Source: an archaeon 13_2_20CM_2_53_6 (GTDB lineage: Archaea; Thermoproteota; Bathyarchaeia; 40CM-2-53-6). Taken from it: DNA of 46,879 nucleotides. The stretch covers positions 1-46,879 of the forward strand of contig MNDT01000026.1 in assembly GCA_001915065.1 (NCBI GenBank), read 5' to 3'. This document shows positions 895 to 17,401 of this stretch, piece after piece. The notes beneath the pieces are model-generated. The model saw only the letters and a list, made by a program, of their open reading frames with translations. It ran no database searches and was not told the origin of the DNA. The position numbers and the translations under genes are program-made. The stretch's first letter is position 1. Every line of letters starts with the position of its first letter.

Positions 895-1091
895 TGGTCC
901 CGGGGGCCGGAACTTCCCAGGACTGTTTTGTCCTGTTTTGAACCGGCGACATTTCGGGGTCTTTCGCGGAGCCTCTCCGGTTTCAACTGTTAGCCTAGAA
1001 GGCTGACTCGCATGCGCGCTAGGCGCACACCTACAGCGTCTCCGTCGCACGAAGGCGACTCGGAAGCTCTTCCAGGCTGAGCTACCCCGGG
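895..1091 (-). tRNA. tRNA-Tyr(GTA), CCA encoded, interrupted by four predicted introns
   Basis: Reverse strand: acceptor CCCGGGG/CCCCGGG, A73, CCA; TA; GCTC-AGCCTGGAA-GAGC D-arm; TCCG|G CTGTAG|A CCGGA anticodon arm; ATGTC variable loop; GCCGG TTCAAA|T CCGGC T-arm. C1:G72 and A73 fit archaeal Tyr. 77 nt mature + introns of 23, 49, 23 and 25 nt = 197 nt. Confidence 0.8.
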
Positions 1092-1119
1092 ACGACGCCC
1101 ACCGGGTCCTCATGATTAG

Positions 1120-1491
1120 TTAAGACTTGTCGGGAGAAGCCTGGTGATTCTCCCGTATCCACCGGGCCAAGTCTCGGAGAGCAATGTTGGATGAGACATC
1201 TATCACCGGAACCTCCATGTTGCCCACCCGGATCATATTGTTGTACTTGGCCATAGGCGCGTGCGAGACGTTTGAGGCGTAGATCTTACCCTTTACATAC
1301 TCATCCGGCAAAGCCTCCGGTTCGACGAAATCTGCGAGAAAGACGACCCCCTCTGCCCAGTACAGCGCCATTGGCTGACCCGAGACGTTCATGACGAACG
1401 CGATCATCGAAGCTAGGTTCTGCTGCGAAGTGAAGCTCGTTAGACCCGTTACGACTATTTCCTGGGGGGGCGAGTGAATGATCGAGACCAA
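1120..1491 (-). CDS. hypothetical protein (123 aa)
   Basis: Single long ORF with plausible composition; no recognised family. Confidence 0.6.
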   Translation of the reverse strand: MVSIIHSPPQEIVVTGLTSFTSQQNLASMIAFVMNVSGQPMALYWAEGVVFLADFVEPEALPDEYVKGKIYASNVSHAPMAKYNNMIRVGNMEVPVIDVSSNIALRDLARWIRENHQASPDKS

Positions 1492-10084: not shown

Positions 10085-10219
10085 GGGCCCGTAGCTTAGC
10101 CAGATCCCTCGCGGGGTCCTAAAGAGGTAGAGCACCGGTGGAGATGTGTCTCTGGTGAAGCTTTTACCTCCGAGGAGGATACCCGGTTGTCGCGGGTTCA
10201 ACTCCCGCCGGGCCCGCCA
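10085..10219 (+). tRNA. tRNA-Lys(TTT), CCA encoded, three predicted introns
   Basis: GGGCCCG/CGGGCCC, G73, CCA; GCTT-(AGCCAGGTA + 23 nt)-GAGC; CCGG|21 nt|G CTTTTA|14 nt|A CCCGG; TTGTC; GCGGG TTCAACT CCCGC. 77 + 58 = 135 nt. Confidence 0.87.
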
Positions 10220-17287: not shown

Positions 17288-17401
17288 GGGCCGGTAGTTC
17301 AGCCCGGTTGGGACAGATCCTCCGGTGAGAACGTCCGCCTTACACGCGGAAACCATGTCGAGGCCGCACGGTCGGGAGTTCAAATCTCCCCCGGCCCACC
17401 A
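17288..17401 (+). tRNA. tRNA-Val(TAC), CCA encoded, two predicted introns
   Basis: GGGCCGG/CCGGCCC, A73, CCA; GTTC-(28-nt loop, ~18 nt intron)-GAAC; TCCGC CTTACAC GCGGA; 23-nt variable region (18-nt intron, leaves AGGTC); GGGAG TTCAAAT CTCCC. Confidence 0.87.

Follow-up and report, generated by a model that had tools for sequence, protein, structure and literature searches.

Reviews and the tRNAscan-SE 2.0 survey describe archaeal tRNA genes with up to three introns each (PMC4033280, PMC8450103, PMC3293823). In the Thermoproteales (Pyrobaculum and kin; Sugahara 2008 and Fujishima 2010), as far as they are treated in PMC4033280 and PMC8450103, short bulge-helix-bulge (BHB) introns lie at both canonical and non-canonical sites, the splicing endonuclease is of the (alpha-beta)2 type, and introns have been gained and lost among relatives. 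Caldiarchaeum subterraneum, which is not a member of the Thermoproteales, has introns in the D-, V- and T-arms of its tRNAs, with several per gene (PMC3293823). Among the Asgard archaea, the main text of PMC11291895 reports that 92-95% of the tRNA genes of Atabeyarchaeia and Freyarchaeia contain introns, over half of them several, with non-canonical sites in use, and these are soil archaea. The locus described here resembles each of these systems in these respects.

The locus lies at 895..1091 on the minus strand of the window (the whole stretch of 46,879 nucleotides that we analyzed), which belongs to an 80%-complete metagenome-assembled genome (MAG; G000) of a soil bathyarchaeon that falls outside the Thermoproteales. 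We are highly confident that it is a functional tRNA-Tyr(GUA) gene with four BHB introns, which we predict are spliced by an (alpha-beta)2 endonuclease. The 197 nt, which include an encoded CCA, read CCCGGGG-TA-GCTCAGCCTGGAAGAGC-TTCCG ... TCCGG-CCCCCGGG-ACCA. If 23 + 49 + 23 + 25 nt are taken out, then a 77-nt tRNA-Tyr(GUA) is left, with C1:G72 and A73. This agrees with the original prediction for this DNA, which had given the strand and coordinates, the 197-nt total, exons adding up to 77 nt, introns of 23, 49, 23 and 25 nt, a Tyr tRNA with C1:G72 and A73 after splicing, and a T-stem GCCGG/CCGGC around 32 nt; each of these can be read from the sequence.

The assignment relies on ARAGORN, which identifies the spliced 77-mer as tRNA-Tyr(gta), and on 18 orthologs from the same family. 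ARAGORN made no calls on the gene in the window or on the unspliced precursor. Across the 15 combinations of intron removal, it reported an uninterrupted tRNA-Tyr solely when all four introns were taken out; its calls after partial removal either had the wrong anticodon or still contained an anticodon-loop intron. Rfam gave no matches to the unspliced gene, even at E up to 10. The tRNA finders that we ran (ARAGORN and Rfam) overlook this gene, so genomes like this one may appear to have no tRNA-Tyr. One result counts against our interpretation: in the minimum-energy folds from RNAfold, for the precursor and for the bare mature RNA, the D and anticodon arms do not form a cloverleaf.

To find orthologs, we searched the genomes of the family with a pattern for the 5' exon of the tRNA, which occurs once in 19 of 21 genomes. 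(Most of the named genomes are MAGs of Candidatus Bathyarchaeota that carry soil-depth labels, from the BA_ and 13_1_40CM series; UBA185 is also among them.) One and the same expression divided each of the 19 genes into its exons and introns; in G002, an assembly gap falls within the 30/31 intron. Each gene contains exactly four introns, for which five sites are in use (30/31, 37/38, 44/45, 53/54, and 59/60), and the mature tRNA always has 77 nt. The introns are at 30/31, 37/38, 44/45, and 59/60 in the window, G007, G010, and G018; at 37/38, 44/45, 53/54, and 59/60 in G008 and G016; and at 30/31, 37/38, 53/54, and 59/60 in the remaining 13 genomes. In other families of the order, the gene has three introns (30/31, 37/38, and 59/60; G024, G029, and G026) or two (30/31 and 37/38; G021). 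Within the family, the mature tRNA is 95-100% identical to the window's (mostly 99-100%) and the introns are 44-96% identical (mostly 44-86% if the near twin G007 is set aside). Near-invariant exons and divergent introns are as expected if the gene works and its introns are spliced out. These comparisons, which are our strongest evidence, support the prediction of one tRNA-Tyr gene that is split by four introns, one of them in the T-loop.

In a canonical BHB motif, the exon's last bases pair with the intron's last bases in a 4-bp helix, which is flanked by 3-nt bulges that are cut after the second base. All four pairs of this border helix (H) form in 63 of the 74 distinct introns, as compared to 1-3% of shuffled introns, and at least three pairs form in all 74 (9-23% of shuffled introns). 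When the 59/60 introns were folded with their T-stems and with no motif imposed, the consensus was T-stem, 3-nt bulge, 4-bp helix, 3-nt bulge, and inner stem, with two-sided compensation in 8 of 15 pairs. That 19 genes of the family would splice to one mature tRNA, with helix pairing so far above that of the shuffles, is beyond chance. The earlier claim that the borders are bulge-helix-bulges thus holds, both from the pairing of H and from the 59/60 consensus fold: removing the introns restores a canonical tRNA, and two opposed 3-nt bulges surround a 4-bp border helix.

In the window, one intron has the strict motif and each of the other three has one mismatch in H. (All of these pieces are on the minus strand.) Exon 1 (1061..1091; positions 1-30, with the 5' side of the acceptor, the D-arm, and the start of the anticodon stem) is the same in the 18 family relatives except for G019. 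The 23-nt 30/31 intron (1038..1060), which is missing from G008 and G016, is the strict one, a canonical hBHBh' with H CTTC/GGAG, bulges CGA and ACG, and a 5-bp inner stem, GTCGC/GCGAC. Exon 2 (1031..1037; GCTGTAG, positions 31-37), which contains the anticodon GTA, is delimited by the parse of the family's genes, as is exon 5. The 49-nt 37/38 intron (982..1030) has two internal hairpins and an H of CTGT/GTTG (3/4 pairs). It is followed by exon 3 (975..981; ACCGGAG, positions 38-44), the 23-nt 44/45 intron (952..974), and exon 4 (937..951; TGTCGCCGGTTCAAA, positions 45-59), inside which the additional 53/54 intron falls in relatives. The 25-nt 59/60 or T-loop intron (912..936), whose consensus fold is hBHBh', has an inner stem CAGGAC/GTCCTG, an H of TTCA/GGAA (3/4 pairs), and bulges AAA and GTT. 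Exon 5 (895..911; TCCGGCCCCCGGGACCA) provides positions 60-76. The orthologs of the 37/38 and 59/60 introns mostly have 4/4 pairs.

The weakest motif is at 44/45. Its H is CCGG/CCGA (3/4 pairs) and its inner stem is short, so this intron of the window would require relaxed recognition. The original prediction had placed it at about 43/44, with ATGTC following; the other three sites stand as given, and this one is better set at 44/45 (exon ACCGGAG, then AGGCTCCGCGAAAGACCCCGAAA, then TGTC). The ATGTC register is one base off because of a short direct repeat. With 44/45, the variable bases become GTGTC, as they are in relatives without this intron, and the 3-nt bulges (AGA and AAT) are canonical. 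We rejected registers 42/43 and 43/44, as their border helices are poorer and they are unlike the relatives.

Could the gene have just three introns (30/31, 37/38, and 59/60), with the 44/45 insert being a degenerate expansion of the variable arm that is never spliced? The weakness of the window's motif would fit, as would a length that is still drifting (the 44/45 intron of G007 has 24 nt). We consider this unlikely. The counterparts in G010 and G018 have the full BHB (hBHBh'), ACCGGAGTGTC is contiguous in 13 relatives in the family, and no tRNA-Tyr of the family has anything like the 28-nt variable arm that would result. Also, the 13 relatives with a 53/54 intron would keep four introns anyway.

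Another concern is that the gene might be a pseudogene or a copy in decay, and that the true tRNA-Tyr is encoded at another place: it is invisible to standard tools and the MAG is incomplete. An intact tRNA-Tyr elsewhere was what the original prediction had named as evidence against itself. We searched for one in the window's genome and in 20 relatives, and found neither a contiguous TCCGGCTGTAGACCGGAGTGTC nor an intron-free tRNA-Tyr in these 21 genomes. A pattern for the D-arm, with up to three mismatches allowed, has one occurrence in the window's genome. A second gene could lie in the unassembled DNA of this 80%-complete MAG, yet six relatives that are at least 90% complete likewise show just one. 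The gene also has a probable TATA box, TTAACTA (1117..1123, minus strand), which lies 32 nt upstream of the start of the mature tRNA and overlaps the stop codon of the upstream open reading frame. At all 10 loci that we examined in genera g1, g2, and g4 of the family, this box is present 32-35 nt upstream of that start; G019 (genus g3) is without it. Several other tRNAs in this genome have a comparable AT-rich box ahead of them, and we infer that TTAACTA is the promoter of the tRNA-Tyr gene. With exons that are near-invariant in 19 genomes while the introns diverge, a conserved promoter-like element, and the sole Tyr gene found, the idea of a pseudogene is largely refuted and we think it very improbable.

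The upstream open reading frame (1120-1491, minus strand) encodes a protein of 123 amino acids with no Pfam match. The protein is 83-98% identical in the family. Most of the genus's genomes encode a close relative of it, and most genomes have a diverged second paralog. In the relatives from g1, g2, and g4 that we examined, this reading frame is also upstream of tRNA-Tyr, with the 5' exon following it.

The genome contains two tRNA_int_endo genes. The putative catalytic subunit (the C17 protein) aligns to 3p1z (E = 1.6e-43), and the alignment covers the loop GFFGKPVGIPKPK as well as the residues Tyr, His, and Lys. This protein also carries VYEHGPGIDHAPF...RKHF. We take 3p1z to be the alpha subunit of the Aeropyrum splicing endonuclease (our tool labels it as tRNA-splicing endonuclease). 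In the C11 paralog, the His is absent. A subunit with the catalytic triad and the crenarchaeal loop, together with a structural paralog that lacks the triad, is what an (alpha-beta)2 enzyme comprises, and the genome encodes both of the expected subunits, which we predict to assemble. Endonucleases of the (alpha-beta)2 type accept relaxed motifs at non-canonical sites (PMC4033280, PMC4090602).

We propose that the gene is transcribed from its own promoter into a precursor with four introns, that the BHBs at 30/31, 37/38, 44/45, and 59/60 are cut by the tRNA splicing endonuclease, whose form is most likely (alpha-beta)2, a heterotetramer of relaxed specificity, and that a tRNA ligase unites the five exons. 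The introns probably leave in order, with each exit letting the next motif fold, because the anticodon stem contributes bases to some border helices (25-28 to that of 30/31 and 39-42 to that of 44/45). Neighboring motifs share exon bases, so this gene is a concrete case in which splicing would need to be ordered. Disrupted tRNAs of other kinds do occur in archaea (reviewed in PMC4033280), but we give almost no credence to split or permuted tRNA parts, as the exons are all collinear within 197 nt, or to self-splicing introns, as group I and II introns are much longer than 23-49 nt and Rfam did not match a group I/II catalytic core in the introns.

The 37/38 intron (982-1030; orthologs in L086-L108) is far better conserved than the other introns, with a near-invariant CAGCC..YYAGGCU..ACA. 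Its YYAGGCU is complementary to AGCCUGG(A/U)AG of the exon's D-loop. Of the 18 distinct introns, 10 can form 9-10 pairs and the others 6-7; position 20 covaries in part. The minimum-energy fold of the precursor contains this pairing, in a pattern that we spotted post hoc. Perhaps it serves as an alternative fold and thereby determines in which order the introns are spliced. We also considered an H/ACA-like guide RNA in this intron and do not propose it, as pairing with the UGU at the intron's 5' end explains the conserved ACA at least equally well.

As for how the introns arose, those at 30/31 and 37/38 look old, as both are in all four outgroup genes. The 59/60 intron is in three of these four, and the 44/45 and 53/54 introns were seen in the family only. 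On the RpoB tree, the genomes with the 44/45 intron fall into three separate groups (G008, G010, and G016; G000 and G007; and G018 by itself). G010 and G018 are from different genera (L089 and L103), and their 44/45 introns are 95% identical, as compared to 53% for their 30/31 introns, which suggests that a segment of the gene was exchanged or transferred. Either a five-intron ancestor lost one intron per line or there were repeated gains, and we do not favor one over the other; the constant number of four may be a coincidence. Among the tRNA loci that we compared, which are a minority of this genome's tRNA genes, there was no match to suggest that the introns were transposed from other tRNAs of the same genome. 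More speculatively, this family might have the most fragmented continuous tRNA gene known in archaea, with five usable sites of which four are always filled, by one loss per line from a five-intron ancestor or by site swapping, and with a conserved 37/38 intron that maybe pairs with the D-loop and helps to set the splicing order. We consider this whole scenario rather improbable.

We also note that introns seem to be the rule in this genome, as its other recognizable tRNA genes (L001-L012, L118, and L142) are mostly 89-127 nt long. The window has two more intron-containing tRNA genes: one at 10085-10216 (plus strand; 132 nt), with long inserts in the D-arm and the anticodon region, and a tRNA-Val(TAC) gene at 17288-17398 (plus strand; 111 nt). 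Of the genome's 12 tRNA loci from Rfam, three gave a gene call in ARAGORN, and in one of these three the anticodon is unclear.

The main difference from the known systems is the number of introns. In the accounts of the Thermoproteales that we cite, the published maximum is three introns per gene, as compared to four here, and the host here is a bathyarchaeon known from soil metagenomes. For C. subterraneum, three is the known maximum as well, and its own multi-intron example, tRNA-Thr, has two (PMC3293823). The main text of the 2024 Asgard study (PMC11291895) does not give a maximum per gene, and a four-intron gene may occur there. Among the papers that our literature searches covered, none described an archaeal tRNA gene with four introns. 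The original prediction had called four introns in one gene notable, and the maximum of three in PMC4033280 and PMC8450103 strengthens that view. Relative to the cited reviews and survey, and limited to these, the count per tRNA gene rises by one, in a lineage that was not known for such genes. Two, three, or four introns at five sites in about 20 related genomes form a natural series for tracing how BHB introns are gained, lost, and exchanged.
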